From the NCBI GenBank assembly GCA_026390435.1, contig JAPLFY010000099.1, positions 1 to 35,644 on the forward strand: DNA of 35,644 nt, written 5' to 3'. Positions 1,382-30,001 of the stretch are shown piece after piece (positions within the stretch are counted from its first letter, which is position 1; each line of letters starts with the position of its first letter). This DNA is from Pseudomonadota bacterium (GTDB lineage Bacteria > Bdellovibrionota_B > Oligoflexia > Oligoflexales > CAIYRB01). The translations under genes were made by a program, and so were the position numbers. The notes beneath the pieces were generated by a model. That model did not search any database, was not told the origin of the DNA, and saw only the letters and a program-made list of their open reading frames with translations.

Positions 1382-3535
1382 ATGCGCAACACGTTACTCC
1401 GAATCTTCGCAGCACTATCAATCGGCGCCGTCATTGCGAGCCTCTATACCTTCGACCTATTGCACTACCTCAGCCTGGACTACATCAAGGCCCAGCAGCA
1501 GGCGTTCGCTGACTATTACGCTCTACACAAGTTAGAGACACTAGCCGTTTATGCTGCCGTATACATCGTAGCAACAGCCCTGTCTTTGCCTGGCGCCACG
1601 GTGCTGACGCTGCTTGGCGGTGCATTATTCGGCCTGGGCACCGGAGTTGTGGTGATATCGTTCGCCTCAAGCATCGGAGCGACCCTTGCCTTTCTCACGG
1701 CCAGGTCCCTACTGCGTGACATCGTCACCACTAAATTTGGCGACCGCCTCAGCGCCATCAATGAAGGTATCCGCCGCGATGGCAGCTTTTACCTCTTCAC
1801 CCTGCGCTTAGTGCCTCTATTTCCATTTTTCATGATCAATCTAGCGATGGGATTAACACCGATCCGTACTCTGACTTTTTACTGGGTGAGTCAGTTAGGC
1901 ATGCTTCCGGGAACTCTCGTCTACGTCAACGCCGGCACTCAACTAGCGAAGATCGACCGCGTTAACGGTATCCTGTCGCCAACAATGCTGATCTCTTTTG
2001 CTCTGCTCGGACTCTTTCCTCTACTCGCCAAAAGAGTGATCACAAGTGTGAAAAAAAGGCACATACTGCAAAAGTGGCCTAAGCCGCGACGCTTCGATTT
2101 CAACATCATTGTGATCGGTGCTGGATCCGGCGGCTTGGTGTCGGCCTACATTGCTGCTGCCGTCAAAGCAAAGGTGGCACTCATCGAAAAGCGCGCTATG
2201 GGCGGCGACTGCCTCAACACTGGATGTGTACCCAGCAAGGCCCTCATCCGCACGGCAAAGGCAGCAGCCCTGTCTAGCCAGGCAAAAGACCTCGGATTCA
2301 AGTCTGTAAGCATTGATTTCGACTTTGCTGACGTCATGGACCGCGTCCAGAATGTGATAAAAAAAATCGCGCCCCATGACTCTATAGAGCGCTATCAATC
2401 ACTCGGAGTCGACTGTATCCAAGGCACGGCACGCGTCCTTAGCCCTTATGAGGTCGAAGTAGGCGGCCGCCGCATCACAGCCCGCAACTTGATTATAGCG
2501 ACCGGTGGCTCGCCACTGGTGCCAAACATACCTGGCCTCCAAGATCACCCCTATTACACTTCCGACACGATATGGAATCTTCGTAAGCTGCCCGGGCGCC
2601 TTCTGATCATAGGAGGCGGCCCCATAGGCTGTGAACTGGCGCAGGCCTTCCAACGCCTCGGCTCCTCAGTCACCATAGTCGAGATGGCTCCGTCGCTGCT
2701 CTCTCGCGAGGATGCGGACGTCTCCGCCCTCATTTCAGGAACCCTTCGCCGGGAAGGCGTGACCGTGCTGGCTGGACATAAAGCCAAAAAATTCACGCTG
2801 ACTCAGGGCGTCCGCTCCTTGATGGTCGAAGACTCACAGGGCGAACGCAGCGTGGAATTTTTGGAATTTGACGAAGTGCTTTTGGCACTGGGACGCCGCG
2901 CACACACCGAGGGATTTGGACTGGAAGACTTAGGCGTGCGCATAGAGCCCAGTGGCACCATTGAACACGACGAGTTCATGCGCACGAACTTCCCCAACAT
3001 ATACTGCGTGGGAGATGTTGCGGGTCCCTATCAATTTACTCATGTGGCCGCACATCAAGCATGGTATGCCGCAGTCAATGCGCTCTTCTCGCCGTTTAAA
3101 TCCTTCAAGGCTGATTACAGAGTCATCCCGCGGGTCACTTTCACCGATCCAGAAATCGCCACGGTCGGGCTGACGGAAAAAGAGGCCGCCGCAAAAAATA
3201 TTCCCTACGAGGTGACGACCTACGGCATTGATGACCTTGATCGCGCCATAGCCGACGGCGACGCCCACGGACTCGTCAAAGTATTAACCGTGCCCGGTAA
3301 CGATAAAATACTCGGAGCCACTGTGGTCGGGGCGCACGCAGGCGAGTATTTCGTCGAATTTGTCACCGCGATGAAACACGGCATCGGACTAAACAAAATC
3401 CTCGGCACCATTCACGCCTATCCGACCTTTGCCGAGGCCAATAAATACGCCGCCGGAGTCTGGAAAAAAGCTCACGCACCGCAGCAGCTCCTGCGCTGGG
3501 TAGCGCTCTTTCATAGCTGGAGGCGCGGCGCATGA
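1382..3535 (+). CDS. TVP38/TMEM64-type membrane domain fused to an FAD-dependent disulfide oxidoreductase
   Basis: This 717-aa fusion has two parts. Residues 1-220 are a hydrophobic SNARE-associated/DedA-like (TVP38/TMEM64) domain, with the family segments LSLPGATVLTLLGGALFG and LRLVPLFPFFMINLAMG. From about residue 238 it is a class I pyridine nucleotide-disulfide oxidoreductase. That part has the FAD-binding GAGSGG (246-251), the redox pair CLNTGC (C277/C282), a second nucleotide site GGGPIGCE, the FAD motif YCVGDVAG and the dimer-interface HAYPTFAE (678-685). It therefore resembles dihydrolipoamide dehydrogenase or MerA. It lacks the C-terminal vicinal Cys pair of true mercuric reductases, and the substrate is unknown. 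The fusion would tether a cytoplasmic thiol reductase to the inner membrane. It overlaps the next gene by 4 bp. The Shine-Dalgarno at this ATG is poor. Confidence 0.9.
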   Translation: MRNTLLRIFAALSIGAVIASLYTFDLLHYLSLDYIKAQQQAFADYYALHKLETLAVYAAVYIVATALSLPGATVLTLLGGALFGLGTGVVVISFASSIGATLAFLTARSLLRDIVTTKFGDRLSAINEGIRRDGSFYLFTLRLVPLFPFFMINLAMGLTPIRTLTFYWVSQLGMLPGTLVYVNAGTQLAKIDRVNGILSPTMLISFALLGLFPLLAKRVITSVKKRHILQKWPKPRRFDFNIIVIGAGSGGLVSAYIAAAVKAKVALIEKRAMGGDCLNTGCVPSKALIRTAKAAALSSQAKDLGFKSVSIDFDFADVMDRVQNVIKKIAPHDSIERYQSLGVDCIQGTARVLSPYEVEVGGRRITARNLIIATGGSPLVPNIPGLQDHPYYTSDTIWNLRKLPGRLLIIGGGPIGCELAQAFQRLGSSVTIVEMAPSLLSREDADVSALISGTLRREGVTVLAGHKAKKFTLTQGVRSLMVEDSQGERSVEFLEFDEVLLALGRRAHTEGFGLEDLGVRIEPSGTIEHDEFMRTNFPNIYCVGDVAGPYQFTHVAAHQAWYAAVNALFSPFKSFKADYRVIPRVTFTDPEIATVGLTEKEAAAKNIPYEVTTYGIDDLDRAIADGDAHGLVKVLTVPGNDKILGATVVGAHAGEYFVEFVTAMKHGIGLNKILGTIHAYPTFAEANKYAAGVWKKAHAPQQLLRWVALFHSWRRGA

Positions 3536-10525: not shown

Positions 10526-12733
10526 TTGCTAAAAAAACGCATAGTCTTAATCGGAGGCGGTCACACACACGCCCTAGTGTTGCGTATGTGGGCTATGGCA
10601 CCGCGGCCAGGTACCGAAATCGTCTTAGTCAGCCCCGTGAATATGGCGGCTTACTCCGGAATGCTGCCTGGTAATATTGCAGGACATTATTCAGAGGCAG
10701 AGATGCACATTGATCTCCGCCGCCTAGCCCACGCTGCTGGCGCGATGTTCGTCGAGGCATCTGCCGAGGGCATAAATCTCACTAGCCGGACTGTCACCCT
10801 GAAATCTCGCCCCCCACTAAGCTTTGACCTTGCCTCAATCAATTTGGGCGGCAGTCCTAAGCTTGGTCTGATCCCCGGAGCTGAGCAGTGGGCCATCCCG
10901 GTCAAGCCGGTGCCACGTTTTCTAGCACACTGGCAAGAGTTGCTAAAAAGCGCAACCCGCTTAGCTAAACACCAGCAACTGCGCATTATCTTAGTTGGCG
11001 GCGGTGCTGGTGGCGTGGAATTAGCGTTATCGATGCGCCGTCGCCTCGGACCCGCCGCTGATATTACCGTGGTTCACAGCGGCAACACGCTCATGAGTAG
11101 CCATAATAAACGGGTCCAAAAAATACTCACTGGCGAATTACACCGCAAAGCAATCAAAGTGATCACCGGTGACGCTGCGGCTTTGGTCCGTCAGAATTCG
11201 CTCACCCTATCATCAGGACTAGAGTTGCCGTTTGACGCCATTTACGTAACCACTCAGGCTCAAGCACCACAGTGGTTCCGTGCGACAGGCCTTCAGTTAA
11301 CCGCACAGGGCTACTTAGCCGTTGATGAAAGTCTTCAGTCTATTAACGCACCCGGTGTCTTCGCCGCTGGCGACTGTGCCACGGTGATTGGCCAAGAGCG
11401 GCCTAGATCCGGTGTGTTCGCGGTGCGCCAGGGAGCACCACTTTTTCAGAATCTGATGTTAGCTCTGGAAGGCAAAGCCTTAAAAAAGGTCCACCTTCAG
11501 CGCGCATTCTTATCTTTAATTGGTACCGGCGATCACCGCGCCGTCGCTGCTCGCGGCGATTGGGCCACCAGCGGGGCCTGGATATGGCGCTGGAAACACG
11601 CTATCGACCAGCGCTTCATGACCAAGTTTAGCGATGTACCAGGTGCGCCCACCATGACGCCCCAGCAACCATCGCCCGCAGAACCCGAGCAGATGCGTTG
11701 CTTTGGCTGTGGCTCTAAAGTTGGAGCACCCGTCTTAACGGCAGCACTGGAAGAGCTTGCCACAAACTTCCCCGATGTGGTGCAGAATCAAAGTCTGGCC
11801 TGGGGTTTAAACGAGCGCGAAGACGTCAGCCAATGGACGCCGCCGCCTGGACTCCCGGTCCTGCAGTCCCTCGACTACCTCCCCGCTTTAGTCACCGATC
11901 CATTTATCGCCGCTCAAATCACCTGCAATCATGCCGTAAACGACATTTTTGCTAAGGGCGGTGAGGTCCACAACATCTTACTGCTGGCGGTACTCCCAGT
12001 CTCTGCCGCTCACTTATCAGCAGACCACTTGCGGCAGCTACTGGCTGGAGTTGCAACGCAGCTCCGCGCTTTTGGCGCCATGTTAGCCGGAGGGCATACC
12101 GCCGAAGGCGAGCGCCTAGCCATAGGCATCACGGCGAACGGCATACAGCGCGGCATCTCTCTTAGCAAAACCGGCGGCAAACCAGGCGATGCACTCATCC
12201 TAACCAAAGCTATAGGCACTGCCCTAATATTCGCCGGAGCCCAGCGCGGGCTTGCTCCCGCACCTAGTGTAGCCAGCGCCATATCTAGCATGCTGCAGTC
12301 GCAACACGGATTGGTTCCGCTACTGCGTCACTCAGAGGTACACGCCTGTACTGACGTCACAGGATTTGGTCTACTCGGTCATCTGTTGGAGATGCTGCGC
12401 GGCGAAACATTAAAGGCCATCCTAAATAGCCGCTCCGTGCCTTACCTAGAGGGTGCTAGGGCGTTAGCCGATGTCGGCATCCGCAGTAGTTTATTTGACA
12501 GCAACTACCAAATCGCTTCCGAGGTGAGCAGCAACGGCCTGAGCCAGAGCGAATGGGGTCTACTTTGTGACCCTCAGACATCCGGTGGCTTCCTTATAAG
12601 TGTCGCCCCTGAAGCTGCCGATGATCTGCTCGCGCAACTGCACCAATGCGGCATGAACCAGGCAGCTATCATTGGGCACTTGGCTGAGCGTGGGCCAATT
12701 GATGCGGCGATTGAGTTCCAGCCTGCGAACTAA
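10526..12733 (+). CDS. selD: NADH-dehydrogenase-like FAD oxidoreductase fused to selenide, water dikinase
   Basis: Residues 1-370 of this 735-aa protein form an NDH-2-like flavoprotein: FAD site IGGGHTH (9-15), NADH site GGGAGG (158-163) and FAD motif AGDC (281-284). Residues about 390-735 are SelD, which makes selenophosphate from selenide and ATP. The active site CFGCGSK gives C395 and K398, equivalent to E. coli C17 and K20. Supporting motifs are SLDYLPALVTDP, LAGGHT, TDVTGFGLLGH and DPQTSGG. The second Cys of the GCGCK motif is Ser here, and no Sec codon is seen. This fusion is known in other bacteria; the flavoprotein may supply reduced selenium. TTG is the start, with AGGCGG six bases upstream. 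No selA, selB, tRNA-Sec or selU lies in the window. Confidence 0.93.
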   Translation: MLKKRIVLIGGGHTHALVLRMWAMAPRPGTEIVLVSPVNMAAYSGMLPGNIAGHYSEAEMHIDLRRLAHAAGAMFVEASAEGINLTSRTVTLKSRPPLSFDLASINLGGSPKLGLIPGAEQWAIPVKPVPRFLAHWQELLKSATRLAKHQQLRIILVGGGAGGVELALSMRRRLGPAADITVVHSGNTLMSSHNKRVQKILTGELHRKAIKVITGDAAALVRQNSLTLSSGLELPFDAIYVTTQAQAPQWFRATGLQLTAQGYLAVDESLQSINAPGVFAAGDCATVIGQERPRSGVFAVRQGAPLFQNLMLALEGKALKKVHLQRAFLSLIGTGDHRAVAARGDWATSGAWIWRWKHAIDQRFMTKFSDVPGAPTMTPQQPSPAEPEQMRCFGCGSKVGAPVLTAALEELATNFPDVVQNQSLAWGLNEREDVSQWTPPPGLPVLQSLDYLPALVTDPFIAAQITCNHAVNDIFAKGGEVHNILLLAVLPVSAAHLSADHLRQLLAGVATQLRAFGAMLAGGHTAEGERLAIGITANGIQRGISLSKTGGKPGDALILTKAIGTALIFAGAQRGLAPAPSVASAISSMLQSQHGLVPLLRHSEVHACTDVTGFGLLGHLLEMLRGETLKAILNSRSVPYLEGARALADVGIRSSLFDSNYQIASEVSSNGLSQSEWGLLCDPQTSGGFLISVAPEAADDLLAQLHQCGMNQAAIIGHLAERGPIDAAIEFQPAN

Positions 12734-20500: not shown

Positions 20501-20706
20501 TCATGACCTCGGTAGCTATGATTGCAGGGATGATACCGGTAGCAGCTGCGCTGGGAGCCGGGGGAGAAGCTAGACGCAGCCTCGGCATTGCCACGATCGG
20601 CGGAGTTATCAGTTCGACGATCTTGACACTGTTGGTTGTCCCAAGCCTCTACCTGGCTATAGAGGAAGGGATGGCCCGCTTAAAGTTGAGGCGGCTGCGG
20701 AAATAA
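17572..20706 (+). CDS. RND-family multidrug efflux transporter (AcrB-like)
   Basis: This 1044-aa inner membrane proton antiporter has the standard RND layout: one N-terminal transmembrane helix, a large periplasmic porter domain, helices 2-6, a second periplasmic loop and helices 8-12. The proton relay is intact: D404/D405 in LAIGLLVDDAIVVREN, and K941 in AGIVAKNSILLVDF. Also present are GFTINVMSLLALSLAIG and RLRPIIMTSVAMIAGMIPVA. The sequence fits the hydrophobe/amphiphile class rather than the heavy-metal class, but the substrate cannot be read from it. AGCAGG lies upstream of the ATG. The gene is third in the operon, and its stop shares one base with the next ATG (TAATG). Confidence 0.95.
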   Translation: MNLIKLSIDRPKFITMVTTFFLVIGVLALKNLAVDLYPNVSYPVLVVVSRLDGAAPEEMEQLITKKMEDSLSTIAGINTLRSVSREGVSVVIMEFDAAIDIRFQEIQVRGKIANLRSSLPDTLKEPEIFRQDPDDTPIIEVAVTGNRSAAEITKLSNDLILPRLRQIAGVGSVDLNGERQPEIQVALKTSALDQWRLNPSDIVSAIRASNRNDPVGQLRGNERTWLVRSTSRAKTATDVAAMPIGKTAQGQPLYLRDVADVSSGFQDVTRVSRFGDKDGFRPAVILNILKQSGENTVKVSDRVQKSLSEIQKLLPQDVTMTVTRDNADLVRSNVADVYESLILGSLLTIAVVLLFLRSIRATITTGLSLPSSVITTFAVMFAAGFTINVMSLLALSLAIGLLVDDAIVVRENIYRHLGEGNAKESAEKGAKEVQLAIVATTLTIVAVFLPVGFMGGVSGQFFKQFALTVVFAVLVSLYDAMTMAPMLSAYFANIPSPSTEWAPLGAVGRWIDRQLLSFEHWFDRVAMGYGRLLAWILPRPLLPLSVTIAALGLAVWGFATVKKSFIPTQFGHVFSVSLQGPLAIPVDRIVAVANSAEERVRTVPSLKGWTVNAGTGQSGYASVDMTLRVDPNAARNQTELGGVRTQVRALLNGFPGYNVRISEPADPLAGSTGRFQPLAVIISGEDIAKLTEISRDVRSVLTKIPGVADVGQVQAEGIPEIQIRTDPSRAGQFGVNAAQISNALATWIQGDASNSIMVADDEVPIRVRLKNARYTAPDDLLRRNIYNKSTTNKAAQGVAISAVTHMEAGSGAAIITRENRQRMVRIGANLAPGAALGDIVTQLQEKLDAMPLPQNYAMRISGQNQQMDELYSNVVWAIGLGILFVYMILVSLFESFTQPISVMAAIPLAATGAVLALLAFQIPLDLYGGVAMILLAGIVAKNSILLVDFAVQRVRDAGESPRQAILEAAPLRLRPIIMTSVAMIAGMIPVAAALGAGGEARRSLGIATIGGVISSTILTLLVVPSLYLAIEEGMARLKLRRLRK

Positions 20707-22817
20707 TGTTGATGCATAGACTTGCACTACTATCATCGCCCTTGATGTTGTTAGCTGGCTGCTTGGGCTTCAACATCAAAACGCTGCAATTCCAGCCACG
20801 TCATTTCGGCGTCATTAATCCCGCACAAATTAAAGTGCAGCCAGAGGTTGATGACTGCGGAGGCGCCATCCGTGACTACGACATCAGCGCAGGGTGGCGC
20901 ACTTGCCAAGCGGAAAAATTGGGCGTTAATGCAACGCGCCTTAGGGAAGCCATCAAAAAGGCCGCCGGAGCCGAAAACAGAACCAGCAGCGTCTTAGTGA
21001 TAAGACGCGGATATATCGTCGGCGAGGGATACTTTGGCTGTGATGATCGTGATGGAGCGGGCGGCTGCACCGATCAACACACGCTCCATCATAGCTGGTC
21101 GGTCGCTAAGGGAGTCACCGCCACCCTCGTGGGATTGGCCATTGCTGACGGAAAAATAAGTAGTGTCGACGACAAGGCCGGACAGTGGGTCGCCCAGTGG
21201 CGATACCCCGGCTGTTTGCCGTTTTGTGATGGACGACAAAACATCACCGTACGGCATCTGATGACATTGACGACCGGCCTCAATTGGCATGAGGATTGGA
21301 ACTCGGATGTTGGTGTTTGGAACTTTCCAGGAAACCTAGATGTAGCCTTTCTCGACGGACGCGGCAACTCTCGCGATCCCGTTGATTTTGTGAGTCGCCA
21401 CCGACTAAGAACCAATGATAGTGGCCTTGACTATCAGCCCGGAGAGTACGCATTTTATTCCACCGGGGATCCCGCTGTTCTATCCCAAGTACTTCAAGGC
21501 GCAGTCGGAATGAAGGCCGCTGATTATGCGGATGCACGTTTATTCGGACCTCTAGGAATGAAAGTTGACTGGTCTAGTGATAAAAGTGGTCGCACCCGAA
21601 CGTATGCAAAAATCCATACCACTACTAGAGACTTCGCAAAATTCGGCCAACTCTATCTCAATCGAGGCCGGTGGAATCAAACGCAACTCATACCGTATCA
21701 ATGGATCGATGAAGAATTAACGCCCTGCGGCGGACTCTGGAACAAATCCCTAAATTACGAGCAGCAACAATGCTACCCTTTTTACGGATACCTATGGCAC
21801 CTTGAATTGCCGATGCGCTTTGCCGTGGCCGCGCCGCCATCGCTCAAAAAAGCCGCATTCATTCCCGAGGACATCAAGAATCTGCCGCATGATGCATTTA
21901 TGGCCGAGGGCATCTTCGGCCAGATGATCACGGTGATTCCATCTCTAGATCTAGTGATCGTGCGCACTGCTGACGACACCCGGTTGCTTGAGGTGCAGGA
22001 CAGGGTCAACATTCAACTGGTTCAGGGCATCATTGATGCGCTGGAACACCGACAAGAATTGATCGGAGGGCCGCACCAAATTAAATCTGACACTGGCAGT
22101 TTATGCCTGTCTTCCTCGACGAATAGATCAACGATGGAGACTCCATTAACAGTAGCGCCCTGCACTACGCGCGACAGTGGACAGAATTGGTATATTAAAA
22201 CCACGTCCGGACGTGGCTATGTACGTCTATTACATATAGGCAGCGGACTATGCGCTGCAGGCGCCGCCTCGTCTTCCTCACGGGGCAGATTCGTCATGAG
22301 GGAATGTAAAGGCAACGATGCAGATCAGGATTGGATGATTGTTGACTTAGGCCACGGCCAGAAGAAAATCGTCGGCAGAAATCCCGCTGTGTCACTCGAC
22401 TGGACGCAGTTGATGTCCACCAATGGATCCAAGCCGCAGACACCAAACCTATCGGATGCCACAAAATTCCAGTTTATTCCTAGCGGACGGGTCTATACCG
22501 ACACCGCGATTTCGCAGCGAGACTTCAAACAGCTCACATCGGTGAATCAGCGCTTCACCGTAAAGTTACAATCAGATGGCAACCTGGTAGTTTTAGACCG
22601 CGGTAGGCAAGTTTGGTCGACCAATACGGGCGGTCGCCAAGCAGTCATCGCACGCGTGCAGAACGACGGTAACATTGTGCTGATGCGCGGCGACCAAAGC
22701 GTCGTATGGCAGACGCATACCACCGGAAAAGGGCTACTTCCATTCCGCTTCACCATTACTGATACTGGTGAGTTGCTACTTCGCGACAGCTTGGACCAGA
22801 TAACCTGGCGTAACTGA
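20706..22817 (+). CDS. Lipoprotein: beta-lactamase-like serine hydrolase with ricin-type and bulb-type lectin domains
   Basis: The 703-aa protein begins with a consensus lipobox, LLAGC (Cys19). Residues about 70-440 are a class C beta-lactamase/esterase-type domain with the nucleophile motif SVAK (S132, K135) and the YST motif (Y251). It resembles 6-aminohexanoate-dimer hydrolase or EstB-like enzymes, not a dedicated penicillinase. Residues about 455-590 form a ricin B/QxW lectin domain (GQNWYI, DQDWMIV, GSGLCAAG). The C-terminal about 105 residues are a bulb-type mannose-lectin domain with LQSDGNLVVLD and VQNDGNIVLM. It would be a lipid-anchored, glycan-binding hydrolase. Its ATG shares one base with the RND gene stop, so it belongs to the efflux operon. 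No good Shine-Dalgarno is present; coupling is likely. Confidence 0.9.
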   Translation: MLMHRLALLSSPLMLLAGCLGFNIKTLQFQPRHFGVINPAQIKVQPEVDDCGGAIRDYDISAGWRTCQAEKLGVNATRLREAIKKAAGAENRTSSVLVIRRGYIVGEGYFGCDDRDGAGGCTDQHTLHHSWSVAKGVTATLVGLAIADGKISSVDDKAGQWVAQWRYPGCLPFCDGRQNITVRHLMTLTTGLNWHEDWNSDVGVWNFPGNLDVAFLDGRGNSRDPVDFVSRHRLRTNDSGLDYQPGEYAFYSTGDPAVLSQVLQGAVGMKAADYADARLFGPLGMKVDWSSDKSGRTRTYAKIHTTTRDFAKFGQLYLNRGRWNQTQLIPYQWIDEELTPCGGLWNKSLNYEQQQCYPFYGYLWHLELPMRFAVAAPPSLKKAAFIPEDIKNLPHDAFMAEGIFGQMITVIPSLDLVIVRTADDTRLLEVQDRVNIQLVQGIIDALEHRQELIGGPHQIKSDTGSLCLSSSTNRSTMETPLTVAPCTTRDSGQNWYIKTTSGRGYVRLLHIGSGLCAAGAASSSSRGRFVMRECKGNDADQDWMIVDLGHGQKKIVGRNPAVSLDWTQLMSTNGSKPQTPNLSDATKFQFIPSGRVYTDTAISQRDFKQLTSVNQRFTVKLQSDGNLVVLDRGRQVWSTNTGGRQAVIARVQNDGNIVLMRGDQSVVWQTHTTGKGLLPFRFTITDTGELLLRDSLDQITWRN

Positions 22818-25361: not shown

Positions 25362-27431
25362 CTAACAGCTGATCTGGCCAGCCCCAACCATCAACAGCGT
25401 CAACACCGCTTTTGCCTTTTGTGGATCATTGGTCGGTATGATGCCCCGCTCTACCCAACCATGGCGCTGCACCAGAGGGTAGCGCTCTGACAAGCTTGTC
25501 ACAAAACTGCCAAAATCTGCGAAGCCTAAATCTAACACCTGTTGCAGCGACCAATGCCGCCAGACAGCTTCTGACCTGCTATAAATTTTCTGATCTAAAG
25601 CCAGTGCAATACGTCCCATCGTATACCTAGGATTGATCTCAACCAAAGGTTGCAGACGAATGCCAGAATCGGACTCATAGAGGAAAGCGTCAATACCGGC
25701 CGGGCCGAGGTATCCGGCAGATGCCAAGGCATCCCCAACCCTGCTAGCCACGTCTTTCAGCTTCGCGGATACGCCAATTTCGTGGTACGCGCGCACTTCC
25801 TCTGGCGCTAGCCCCGCGTGTTTAAATCCCAATACGTGGCCAATGTATTGGCCTCGCTGATCGGTCAAAAAACGCGTCACACCGAGCACGGTAGAGCCTT
25901 GCGCTGTGACCTCTATCTGGACACTATAATCTGCAATGCGCTTGCACCATGGTTCGACTACAACCGCCCCCTGCTGCCGCAGGATGCGTTCCAGCCAACG
26001 CTTTTGATTGTCCGTAAGCCCAGCCTCAGGCAGCACGCGCAGCATATTCCGACCAGCACAACCTAACGGCGCCTTGATCACGACGGGACCCCGAGCTAGC
26101 CACTGATTGACTGCATCTTGAGACTGCTCAAAATCTCGGCAAACACGCCCCGGAAAGGGATCATCAACAACGCTCGGCGCTAACTCCTTGGCCCACGCCT
26201 TAGAAAATACCTCGGCCGGAGGAGAAAAAAGACTCTGCTGCCAACGCACTCCAAGCGCATTTGCCAATCTCAGCGCGGTCGCACTTTGACCCCACGGTGA
26301 CCACTTTTCAAACAATCTATTATTTAGATCTGCGCGCTCATCCGGAGTGACAAACTGCGGGATCCTGTAACCAACGCGTTCAAGCATCAGCAAGAACTCA
26401 GGGCTTGGACGATACTCTGTCAATACGACGTCATCGTCGTTGGCTAAAAACTGCAGCAAGCTCCCAAGGTCATGCGTCCAGGCTTGAAGACCCTTGGGCG
26501 TCGAGTAATTCACACCTTGCGCGATCTCTTCTTCAACAGTTGGGTTGAACCAAAAAAGTCGCGGCGGCCGACCCTTAGAATGGCGGTAAAGTCCTAACTC
26601 GCGCACAAATTCCTCCGACAGTCCCGCCGCGTAGCGGGCCTCGACCTGTAGCCCTGGCCCCTTTGCCCGGGCCGGAGTCAGCGGCAACGGCAACAGCCGC
26701 TTATACGCGTTCCAGTCACTCTCTTTAGCCTCACGCTCGTCACGACCCTCACGCTCGTCACGCCAACGGTTAAACCATAAGACGCCGTGTCCGACATGGC
26801 CGATCTCTTCGCGGTAAACCGTATCCATCAACTGCGCCGTAGGCTGATCACCGATCAGGGTAAAAGCATCGAGATAATGCCGAGCAAAATCTAAATTTGC
26901 CTGCTCAAAGGTCATAGACATCTGAGTTACAAATACTAGCGGTGACAGAGTCGGAGACATGACGTCCCAAAAATAGCCATTGACCGGAACCGCCCCAAAG
27001 TCGACTCCGAGCTCTTTCATACGCACCAGGTAGCGACTTAAATGGGACTGCTCTTCCTGCATGATCCCAGCAAGTCCGCGACGAAATGCGGCAGGTGCTT
27101 CCGGAAAACGCAGCAATGCTAATGCCATCAATTCCAGTGCAAGGAGCTCATGATTGGCAAAGAAGTGCAGCACGACCCCACGCTGATCATCCCGCTCTAA
27201 CTGGTGGATCGTCGGAAACGCAACTCGCGCGGCTGCATGCCCGGTGCCCCAAGCTAGTCCATGTGGCCGTGCTGGTGCACCTGGCACCTTCACTGCCTGA
27301 GCCGCCCGACCTGGCTGAGTATCCGAGATGATATCTGGACGGCTTAGCTTGACCGCTAAATCCGCTGAGTAAAGTATAGACTCAGCCCACTCTCTGAGCT
27401 CCATGACCGTGATATCCCGTGCTATCCGCAA
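25362..27431 (-). CDS. Ferritin-like diiron (DUF455) domain fused to an ATP-grasp ligase domain
   Basis: Residues about 85-220 of this 689-aa protein are a DUF455-type ferritin-like helical bundle with a full diiron ligand set: E95, E127-x-x-H130, E176 and E209-x-x-H212. Residues about 285-440 look like a pre-ATP-grasp domain. From about 445 is an ATP-grasp core with K453 (VVIKAPLGCAGRNM), VVEPWCKR and the metal-binding VEINPRYTMGR (E598, N600). It may activate a carboxylate and join it to an amine or thiol, with an oxidative or hydroxylating step by the diiron half. The substrate is unknown. The start is TTG 27431, three bases after the DCC stop and without a clear ribosome site; ATG 27404 is the alternative. 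Confidence 0.88.
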   Translation of the reverse strand: MRIARDITVMELREWAESILYSADLAVKLSRPDIISDTQPGRAAQAVKVPGAPARPHGLAWGTGHAAARVAFPTIHQLERDDQRGVVLHFFANHELLALELMALALLRFPEAPAAFRRGLAGIMQEEQSHLSRYLVRMKELGVDFGAVPVNGYFWDVMSPTLSPLVFVTQMSMTFEQANLDFARHYLDAFTLIGDQPTAQLMDTVYREEIGHVGHGVLWFNRWRDEREGRDEREAKESDWNAYKRLLPLPLTPARAKGPGLQVEARYAAGLSEEFVRELGLYRHSKGRPPRLFWFNPTVEEEIAQGVNYSTPKGLQAWTHDLGSLLQFLANDDDVVLTEYRPSPEFLLMLERVGYRIPQFVTPDERADLNNRLFEKWSPWGQSATALRLANALGVRWQQSLFSPPAEVFSKAWAKELAPSVVDDPFPGRVCRDFEQSQDAVNQWLARGPVVIKAPLGCAGRNMLRVLPEAGLTDNQKRWLERILRQQGAVVVEPWCKRIADYSVQIEVTAQGSTVLGVTRFLTDQRGQYIGHVLGFKHAGLAPEEVRAYHEIGVSAKLKDVASRVGDALASAGYLGPAGIDAFLYESDSGIRLQPLVEINPRYTMGRIALALDQKIYSRSEAVWRHWSLQQVLDLGFADFGSFVTSLSERYPLVQRHGWVERGIIPTNDPQKAKAVLTLLMVGAGQISC

Positions 27432-27434
27432 TTT

Positions 27435-27839
27435 TTATTTCGGCTTAGCGTCCACGCGGCAACGGCCATTTTCATCGCATTCGGGTTGAAACCCAGAAAA
27501 GCGCGGCCGATACCTGGCAAACACTCGGTACCCTATATCAGCCAATGGCCGGAAAGGCCACACTGCGGTCCACCCCATCACCCAGCCCAGTCCAACGGCC
27601 TTGTACATATCGCGTATGGTGTCCATACCATGGATAATTTCACCGTCAGCCCGGACCGCATGGAGTGACCCAATGCACTGATCCAGAGTCAAACCAAAGC
27701 TCTCCGGTTTGAAATCTGAATCAGCAATATCGACGATGCCCAAATGGCCTCTGCGATCAATCTTCTTTAACAGATTCACCTCCCGCCTACAGACGGGACA
27801 GAGGCTATCGTAAAGGACAGTGACCGCGGGCATAGTCAT
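27435..27839 (-). CDS. DCC-family thiol-disulfide oxidoreductase-like protein (DUF393)
   Basis: The 134-aa protein opens with the family signature YDSLCPVCRREVNLLKK, giving a CPVC pair at C14 and C17, and ends the core with the typical FRPLADIGYRVFARYR. Three further cysteines lie in the protein, two of them in a short C-terminal ECDENGRCR. The family is thioredoxin-like and assumed to act in thiol redox chemistry, but substrates are not defined. Its ATG overlaps the prc stop (ATGA), and the DUF455/ATP-grasp gene follows within a few bases. The three are therefore probably made from one transcript. Confidence 0.9.
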   Translation of the reverse strand: MTMPAVTVLYDSLCPVCRREVNLLKKIDRRGHLGIVDIADSDFKPESFGLTLDQCIGSLHAVRADGEIIHGMDTIRDMYKAVGLGWVMGWTAVWPFRPLADIGYRVFARYRPRFSGFQPECDENGRCRVDAKPK

Positions 27840-30001
27840 TGGGGATGTACCTTAGAGGGTGCTGGTTTTGTGTCCTCAGCAACATTTACTTTATCAAGGC
27901 TAGGTAGAGATACCTTGGCCAGTGGCTTCTTGTTCAAGAGTTGCACGTAGTCGGCGGCGACCCGGAGTGTCTCTTGCAACATGAAGTCATCTACCAATGG
28001 AACTTTTTCTGCATCTTCGTCTTCATCCGGGTTTGGCTTCTTCGCAGCCTTTTTATCACCTTTTTTGTCTTTATCCGCATCGGCTATTTTTTTATCTTTA
28101 GAGCTGCCTTTGGCGCTATCTTTATTCTTCGCTTCGGCGGCAGCCTTAGCTTCTGGAGTTTCCTCTTTCAGACTCACCCGTGAGCGAGCCTCTTCGCTCG
28201 ACTTGTACTCTTTAATCGCAGCGAACACTTTTTCGAAGCCCTTATCTTTTTGCACACGCTCTTTACTAGCTTCACGAATATTTTTCACAACATCAGGTGC
28301 CACTAGACTAAAGGCGCGGAAATCCGATGGATTAATTTTTTCCCATGGCAGTGCGTAGTCGTAATGTTTTTCGCCGATCTCGTACTCATCCATCAGGTCC
28401 GGCAGCACAATGTCAGACTCTACGCCCTTTAACTGGGTACTCGAGCCCGATGGCCTATAGAACTTACTGATAGTCACTTTGATCGCGCCAAGCTTCTCGT
28501 CGATGTCATTAAGATTTTGCACAGTGCCTTTACCGAAAGTATGGGCGTCGCCCACGATCAGACCGCGACCGTAGTCTTGGATCGCACCAGCAAAAATCTC
28601 GCTCGCACTTGCCGACTGACGATTGATCATGACGACCAACGGACCGCTAAACACTTTACCATTTTCATCGCGCTGAACGAACACAGATCCACGCGTATCT
28701 TTGATTTGAACGACTGGACCCTTATCAACGAAGAAGCCGGCAATGTCGATTGATTCATCAAGACTACCACCACCGTTGGAGCGCAAGTCGACCACGATCG
28801 CATCGACATTTGCTTTCTTCAGCTTGTTGATCTCGGCCAACATGTCTACTGATGAGCTCTTGTAGCCCTTCTCGTGATTTTGGCGGCCTTCAAAGTCCAT
28901 GTAAAAGCTGGGCAAATCGATGACACCGATTTTAATATTTTTCTCGGCACCAGCAGCATCTTTCATCGATACGGGGAAGACGGTCGATTTAGCCGCGCGG
29001 TCTTTTAGTTGAATCTGCGCCCGAATAATCGGCACCACGATTTGGCTGGTTTTACCGGCCTCCTCGCGAACCAAGGTAAGGCGCACTTCGGTGGCACGGG
29101 CGCCACGAATGAGCTTCACCACCTCCCGAAGATCCATATCAATAACGTCGACTGGTGGCTCTTCACCCTGTGCTACAGCAATAATCTTATCGTCGACCTT
29201 GACCTTACCTGTGTTTGCGGCTGCTCCACCCGGCACCAAGCTCTGGATGGTGGTGAATCCATCTTCACTACGCAACACAGCGCCGATACCTTCAAGAGAC
29301 AAGCGCGTTGAAATACGGAAGTCTTCTAGGGACTCAGTCGACATATATTCCGAGTGGGGATCTAGCGCTAAAGAAAATGAGTTTAGGAAGATATTGAAGG
29401 TGTCATCCATCGACATTTCGTTTTGGCGCTTCTCTGCCAAAGCGTAGCGTTTGTTCAGTTTCTCTTTAGCTTTCTCAACATCTTTGAGGGTGCCTTTGAG
29501 CTGCAACAACTGAAACTTCACCCGCTCACGCCAACGGCCTGAGATCTCCTCCGCAGTGGTGGCGTACTCGAGTTTTTTACGGTCTATCATCATGTATTCA
29601 TCGACTTTAAAGTCGTGCTTCGCGCTGATCCACTCTTTGATGACTTTTTGACGCTCAGCAAAGCGTTTGCCGTACACCTTGGCGATATCTTCAGCCGCGC
29701 GACAATCTGAATCCATGATCATATCGTCTAACTTCGTCGCGTACTTGTCCTCGAACTGCTTCACATCGGACTTGAGGAAGTAGACTTTGCCCGGATCCCA
29801 CGCTTTGACGTAATTATCCAGGGTGCGTCGGCTTAGTTCATCGTCAAACTCGTGATAGGAATAATGCATCTTGAAGTAGACACCGACGAGCTGACGCACT
29901 TGCTGGCAATTAAGTGCAAAACTATCTGCAGCGAATCCGGTTAAGGCAAGCGCAACACCCACGCACCACAGCCCGACAATCTGTCTTCTGTAATAGGCCA
30001 T
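27836..30001 (-). CDS. prc: Tail-specific (C-terminal processing) S41 protease
   Basis: I place the start at ATG 30001, with GGGAG eight bases upstream, followed by a clear signal peptide (VGVALALTGFAADSFA). This gives 721 aa and drops a 13-residue upstream extension. The layout is that of Prc/Tsp: an N-terminal helical domain, a PDZ domain (LEGIGAVLRSEDGFTTIQSL, PGGAAANTGKVKVDDKIIAV), and the S41 core with DLRSNGGGSLDE, nucleophile NRQSASASE and Lys in FGKGTVQ. A C-terminal extension contains a very Lys/Asp/Ala-rich segment (KGSSKDKKIADADKDKKGDK). Prc trims or degrades periplasmic proteins. It heads the apparent operon with the DCC and DUF455/ATP-grasp genes, an unusual pairing. Confidence 0.93.
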   Translation of the reverse strand: MAYYRRQIVGLWCVGVALALTGFAADSFALNCQQVRQLVGVYFKMHYSYHEFDDELSRRTLDNYVKAWDPGKVYFLKSDVKQFEDKYATKLDDMIMDSDCRAAEDIAKVYGKRFAERQKVIKEWISAKHDFKVDEYMMIDRKKLEYATTAEEISGRWRERVKFQLLQLKGTLKDVEKAKEKLNKRYALAEKRQNEMSMDDTFNIFLNSFSLALDPHSEYMSTESLEDFRISTRLSLEGIGAVLRSEDGFTTIQSLVPGGAAANTGKVKVDDKIIAVAQGEEPPVDVIDMDLREVVKLIRGARATEVRLTLVREEAGKTSQIVVPIIRAQIQLKDRAAKSTVFPVSMKDAAGAEKNIKIGVIDLPSFYMDFEGRQNHEKGYKSSSVDMLAEINKLKKANVDAIVVDLRSNGGGSLDESIDIAGFFVDKGPVVQIKDTRGSVFVQRDENGKVFSGPLVVMINRQSASASEIFAGAIQDYGRGLIVGDAHTFGKGTVQNLNDIDEKLGAIKVTISKFYRPSGSSTQLKGVESDIVLPDLMDEYEIGEKHYDYALPWEKINPSDFRAFSLVAPDVVKNIREASKERVQKDKGFEKVFAAIKEYKSSEEARSRVSLKEETPEAKAAAEAKNKDSAKGSSKDKKIADADKDKKGDKKAAKKPNPDEDEDAEKVPLVDDFMLQETLRVAADYVQLLNKKPLAKVSLPSLDKVNVAEDTKPAPSKVHPQ

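Follow-up and report, generated by a model that had tools for sequence, protein, structure and literature searches.

Here we describe a gene that joins a DUF455 ferritin-like diiron module to an ATP-grasp module in a single polypeptide, found on contig JAPLFY010000099.1 of a Pseudomonadota bacterium (assembly GCA_026390435.1; GTDB lineage Bdellovibrionota_B, Oligoflexia, Oligoflexales, CAIYRB01). The whole stretch of DNA that was analysed, 35,644 nucleotides in length, is referred to as the window, and the positions of the features in it are collected in Table 1. The fusion is genuine and both of its halves are under purifying selection. The pairing of the two modules, fused or split, recurs in three distantly related groups of bacteria, from which it is probable that the two chemistries serve one pathway. 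On balance we lean towards a cytosolic bifunctional ligase-oxidase that acts on a core small molecule.

Three kinds of genomic evidence, namely the fusion itself, the co-occurrence of unlinked genes and the clean loss of one module, tie two domains of unknown function into one reaction sequence. DUF455, a domain that proteobacteria also have as stand-alone proteins, thereby gains a concrete biochemical hypothesis, and the evidence points towards a metabolite or modification produced in many uncultured Verrucomicrobiota and in environmental Chlamydiota. As a biocatalyst, a self-contained ligase-oxidase would be useful too.

Architecture and integrity of the fusion protein

The DUF455 module (PF04305) was matched with 148.6 bits against a gathering cut-off of 34.3, and the cut-off was also exceeded in 25 of the 25 aligned homologues. 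In the C-terminal half, a DUF3182-like ATP-grasp match was obtained for residues 406-529 (E 1.3e-7), which is above the cut-off on a partial stretch only; the DUF3182 model matches just 6 of the 25 family members and the PreAtp-grasp model just 2. No model of NCBIfam matched the fusion protein, and a PDB sequence search with the whole protein gave no direct match.

An earlier note on this DNA, made from the sequence alone, had proposed a fusion with an intact diiron site and an intact-looking ATP-grasp core and had named nine residues for them. The Pfam domains and the residues agree with this proposal: E95, E127, H130, E176, E209 and H212 of the predicted diiron site and K453, E598 and N600 of the predicted ATP site are all invariant in the 25 homologues, down to 25% identity, and D581, an ATP-grasp D/ExN residue, is likewise invariant. 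Across 64 fusion sequences from two phyla, K453, E598 and N600 are present every time and the six diiron ligands are kept in 63, the remaining sequence being cut by a contig end. Two E...ExxH half-sites, by which a ferritin-like diiron site is recognised, lie on the predicted helical bundle, and the FANHELLA and TFEQANLDF stretches around the ligands are strongly conserved.

The check for a hidden frameshift that came with the earlier note was also performed and no split was found. The frame is open. Compared with the closest relative, the ratio of nonsynonymous to synonymous substitution (dN/dS) comes to 0.07 in the DUF455 half and 0.12 in the ATP-grasp half. Homologues from two phyla are encoded in uninterrupted frames of about 650-850 amino acids, and within the window's phylum nearly all are one open frame when fragments at contig ends are set aside. 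A hidden frameshift or a chimeric assembly is ruled out by these observations. The nonsynonymous divergence from the same relative (dN) is 0.013 in the DUF455 half and 0.038 in the ATP-grasp half, so that the DUF455 half is the more conserved of the two.

Predicted structure

The structure was modelled by AlphaFold2 on the alignment of 25 sequences, with a mean predicted local distance difference test score (pLDDT) of 91 and a predicted template modelling score (pTM) of 0.85, and was compared with the PDB by Foldseek. The top matches were 8ynd (E 8e-15), 3wvq/3wvr (1.4e-13), SAOUHSC_02373 (7r8p/q, 2e-12) and BesA (8yi6, 2.4e-11); 3wvq is PGM1, and BesA is an amino-acid ligase. In its predicted fold the ATP-grasp half is closest to amino-acid and peptide ligases. 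The sequence profile of the family picks 7r8p (E 4.6e-4) and 8ynd (0.046), both of them marginal matches.

Modelled alone, the DUF455 half is a helical bundle (pLDDT 93), and among solved folds it comes nearest to aldehyde-deformylating oxygenase and bacterioferritin (probability 1.00). The sequence-profile matches for this half are also ferritin-like and likewise marginal.

Distribution and coupling of the two modules

The fusion is single-copy in its genome. It was found in 7 of 7 genomes of the window's family, in 27 of 43 genomes of its order by a single-sequence search and, as a single-copy gene, in 41 of 58 genomes of its phylum by a profile search, the last count including one genome (G024) in which just a part of the ATP-grasp region was matched, and that marginally. 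Throughout the phylum, all DUF455 matches above the Pfam cut-off lie within the fusion or its fragments, with a single exception. This exception (G046:C440:2486-3166, in a frame of 341 amino acids) is the sole clear stand-alone DUF455 gene of the phylum, and the same genome also has the fusion.

When related loci were scanned, Limisphaerales (Verrucomicrobiota) proved to have the fusion, and one chlamydial genome a lone DUF455. The fusion profile matches 129 of 293 Limisphaerales genomes, mostly over the full length, and in most of these 129 the fusion is a single-copy gene. In the Chlamydiota (234 genomes) the two modules are separate genes, with DUF455 of about 260 amino acids (E about 1e-90) and ATP-grasp of about 310-440 amino acids. 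Among the matches listed, both modules are present in 64 of these genomes, DUF455 only in 15 (six of which have one further match beyond those listed), ATP-grasp only in 6 and neither in 149. On long chlamydial contigs hundreds of kilobases separate the two genes (e.g. G452, G571, G580 and G582), and because the loci are so distant the co-occurrence is not a hitch-hiking of neighbours. The fused and the chlamydial DUF455 share 41% identity, and they are far closer than the fused form is to the proteobacterial stand-alone forms.

The ATP-grasp gene stands alone in a Limisphaerales clade of six sequences (support 100/99) that is nested among the fusions, and also in G260, whose placement in the tree is less certain. 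These stand-alone proteins retain the ATP-grasp residues. A direct search for DUF455 in six genomes (G189, G168, G128, G072, G260 and G157) gave no match, and in G269 only a match below the cut-off was present. Read from its position in the tree, the clade has lost the DUF455 module cleanly. Four other sequences that looked like stand-alone halves (L132, L134, L141 and L142) were set aside because they are cut at contig edges.

Relatives of the ATP-grasp half alone were also seen in Parabacteroides (L186), Prevotella (L187 and L189) and Streptomyces (L188), where they are annotated as hypothetical or are unannotated. The Streptomyces relative sits inside a biosynthetic cluster.

Proposed function

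In this structural group, ATP-grasp enzymes link amino acids or peptides via an acyl phosphate. In the ligase-oxidase that we favour, the C-terminal half would activate a carboxylate as an acyl phosphate using Mg-ATP, and the acyl phosphate would be coupled to an amine to give a small conjugate, either an amide or a peptide-like compound. The N-terminal ferritin-like diiron half, supplied with O2 and with electrons from some cellular donor, would then hydroxylate the same molecule or oxidise it in another way, most probably in its ligated form. Ligation is placed as the core step and oxidation as a dispensable elaboration, because the ligase persists without the oxidase in the clade that lacks DUF455. 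A housekeeping-like role is suggested since the gene is single-copy and no biosynthetic cluster surrounds it. The analysis itself shows the architecture, the invariant catalytic residues of both sites, the predicted folds, the purifying selection and the coupling of the modules across three phyla; the chemistry, the order of the steps and the housekeeping-like role are inferred. The idea of the earlier note that ligation and oxidation are combined in one polypeptide finds good support in the architecture and as a functional pair, fused in two phyla, co-occurring in a third and intact in both active sites. Its thiol part and any protease part are unsupported by the neighbourhood data given below.

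Several observations speak against this assignment. Identity of the ATP-grasp half to characterised ligases is only about 14-17%. The Foldseek E-values for the DUF455 half are weak (best 0.038), which leaves the choice between an oxygenase and a ferroxidase or other diiron chemistry undecided. The co-occurrence in Chlamydiota has a Fisher P of 2e-35, a value uncorrected for shared ancestry, and stand-alone DUF455 proteins, for example in alphaproteobacteria, show that DUF455 is generally independent of this ligase.

It may also be that the DUF455 half is a ferroxidase, an iron sensor or a scaffold that gates the ligase by iron or oxygen, the product then coming from the ligase alone. Bacterioferritins stand beside the aldehyde-deformylating oxygenase among the nearest folds, and the survival of the ligase without DUF455 in one clade is in agreement with such gating, but the strong conservation of the six ligands and of the two motif stretches is what would be expected of an active-site pocket, and the DUF455 half is the more slowly changing of the two; we consider the gating role improbable. 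More broadly, the fusion could belong to a large, so far undescribed family of enzymes in which one polypeptide carries out first the ligation and then the oxidation of a single substrate, giving a hydroxylated peptide-like core metabolite or a modification of the translation machinery, common to the window's phylum, Verrucomicrobiota and environmental Chlamydiota. We put this broader statement forward as tentative, at somewhat less than an even chance.

Genomic neighbourhood

The genes around the fusion are variable and mostly unrelated, and no biosynthetic cluster was seen. Family f10 has a trpS-like gene upstream, fliL-fliM-fliN are neighbours in f13 and an ABC-F gene in part of f11, and in parts of Limisphaerales genes for a DEAD helicase, ABC-F, RF3 and miaA are near the gene. 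An assignment of function from conserved neighbours was tried and given up, the neighbours being family-specific with no convincing convergence.

Some of these neighbours bear on the main rival, in which the fusion modifies a macromolecule of translation (tRNA, ribosomal protein or translation factor) through addition of an amino acid together with hydroxylation, by analogy with MiaE, RimK or the modification of EF-P, and makes no free metabolite. In three Limisphaerales genomes of a single clade (L131:5471-7970, L135:3778-6227 and L138:5322-7795) the stand-alone ATP-grasp gene is immediately followed by miaA (tRNA isopentenyl transferase), which may hint at a modification of tRNA. Within the window's phylum, one family has the ABC-F gene next to the fusion (L041, L042 and L046), and in Limisphaerales the two are convergently transcribed neighbours (L149, L152, L154 and L156); genes for DEAD-box helicases are repeatedly found close to the fusion in two phyla. 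In Chlamydiota the conserved order ispF-like, ATP-grasp, murA-like, epmB-like was observed (L192, L194, L196, L198, L200, L204 and L210; names from sequence motifs, not database matches), which puts an epmB-like gene two genes from the ATP-grasp. The trpS-like gene of f10 may be counted here too, and a core gene that is single-copy and lies outside any biosynthetic cluster would suit this role. However, most of the cited neighbours are not co-directional with the gene, they were chosen post hoc among kinds of genes that are common, the miaA adjacency is confined to one clade, and an RNA-binding domain was not found in the fusion. The hints from neighbours are weak, and we regard a role on the translation machinery as unlikely, though less so than the gating role.

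In the window the fusion is preceded by a gene for a DCC1-like thiol-disulphide oxidoreductase and by prc, the gene of a tail-specific protease. This order was found only in the window and three near relatives, all of one genus (G000, G001, G003 and G004). In two other genomes of the genus (G002 and G005) the fusion and prc are on different contigs and DCC had no match, in G006 each of the three genes is on a contig of its own, and the 11 further genomes of the phylum that have both DCC and the fusion carry them on different contigs each time. Most fusion-bearing genomes have no DCC match, and in the seven further genomes in which the surroundings of DCC were inspected its neighbours are other genes. 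Of the 43 genomes of the order, 42 have the prc gene, and outside the four it is located elsewhere in the genome. Its product has a start resembling a signal peptide, and the Prc family acts outside the cytoplasm.

The DCC/Prc operon was rejected as a functional unit by this distribution of the three genes; as judged from gene order across genomes, it is a local arrangement in which the protease and redox genes are chance neighbours. A wider pathway with DCC as thiol redox partner and Prc cooperating with the fusion would fit the tight co-directional packing in the four genomes, but with the scattered positions of the genes elsewhere, the near-universal prc and the extracytoplasmic place of Prc we hold it to be very improbable. 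The check for a conserved neighbourhood thus went against the earlier note, whose thiol-modifying function, drawn from DCC, is unsupported, and its caution that the protease link may be only positional was right.

Gene layout and other fusions in the window

The earlier note had also described three tightly packed genes on the minus strand, with a 4-bp overlap, a 3-bp gap and a terminator-like hairpin at the end. The consecutive order prc, DCC, fusion and the 4-bp overlap of prc and DCC were recovered. The 3-bp gap would need an unlikely TTG start at 27431; the real gap between DCC and the fusion is probably 30 bp, because the starts of the homologues correspond to the ATG at 27404 (MELREWAE) and the structure model has low confidence in the residues preceding it. 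No terminator-like hairpin was found 3′ of the fusion gene in a promoter and terminator scan of the region, in which the counts were near chance and the seven terminator-like sites were all away from the fusion end.

Table 1. Positions of the fusion gene, its modules and predicted site residues, and of the adjoining genes in the window.
Feature	Position	Strand	Basis or remark
DUF455/ATP-grasp fusion gene	25362..27404	-	ATG start at 27404; open frame, Pfam matches, homologue starts
Longer fusion open reading frame from TTG start	25362..27431	-	689 codons
DUF455 ferritin-like diiron module	26604..27284	-	Residues 50-276 of the 689-residue frame; Pfam E 3e-43, helical-bundle model
E95, predicted iron ligand	27147..27149	-	Invariant
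E127-x-x-H130, predicted iron ligands	27042..27053	-	Invariant
E176, predicted iron ligand	26904..26906	-	Invariant
E209-x-x-H212, predicted iron ligands	26796..26807	-	Invariant
Pre-ATP-grasp and ATP-grasp module	25365..26576	-	Residues 286-689; Foldseek E 8e-15 to 8ynd, 1.4e-13 to 3wvq
K453, predicted ATP-binding lysine	26073..26075	-	Invariant
E598-x-N600, predicted Mg-ATP ligands	25632..25640	-	Invariant
DCC1-like thiol-disulphide oxidoreductase, 134 amino acids	27435..27839	-	Pfam E 1.7e-21; local neighbour rather than conserved partner
Prc/Tsp tail-specific protease	27836..30001 (from ATG)	-	Pfam TSP_NTD, S41, PDZ, DUF3340; local neighbour

Other fused genes were observed on the plus strand of the window. 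A VTT (DedA-like) membrane domain is fused to a pyridine nucleotide-disulphide oxidoreductase at 1382-3535, and an oxidoreductase of the same kind is fused to an AIR-synthase/SelD-like domain at 10526-12733. At 20706-22817 a beta-lactamase-like serine hydrolase carries ricin-type and B-type lectin domains, and this gene and one for an AcrB-type efflux pump overlap by 1 base at the end of the latter.

Comparison with known systems

The ATP-grasp half is like PGM1 (3wvq/3wvr), the Streptomyces protein 8ynd/8ynq, SAOUHSC_02373 (7r8p/q) and BesA (8yi6) in its predicted fold, including the pre-ATP-grasp domain, and in its K and ExN motif. It differs from these ligases in sequence (14-17% identity), and none of them is described with a fused diiron domain. 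The stand-alone proteobacterial DUF455 proteins belong to a common Pfam family (PF04305) and share at most about 28% identity with the fusion over part of the domain; in the one neighbourhood examined no such ligase adjoins them.

In the open literature searched, DUF455 and DUF3182 are mentioned mostly as entries in lists. DUF455 is among the folds assigned via designed sequences (PMC4520260), and DUF3182, to which the fusion has only a weak sequence match (E 1.3e-7, 6 of 25 members), was predicted as an ATP-grasp in 2015 in a paper where a ferritin-like fusion is unmentioned (PMC4431377). A description of a ferritin-like or diiron fusion with ATP-grasp (DUF455, DUF3182 or COG2833) was not found in the open literature, subscription papers being outside the search, and within that scope the word "unreported" used in the earlier note holds.

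Operons that pair a diiron oxygenase with an ATP-grasp ligase have been predicted (PMC2922099), and in the mangotoxin pathway the ligases MboC and MboD and the diiron oxidase MboA are separate polypeptides (PMC13185094). The likeness to the Mbo pathway lies in its logic, in which ATP-grasp ligases make a short peptide and a diiron enzyme oxidises it. In Mbo/HDO clusters the oxidase is a protein of the haem-oxygenase fold, encoded separately inside a biosynthetic cluster, whereas the best structural and sequence matches of the DUF455 half are ferritin-like and the varied neighbours of the fusion form no Mbo-like cluster; its predicted oxidase is fused to the ligase in a widespread single-copy gene.

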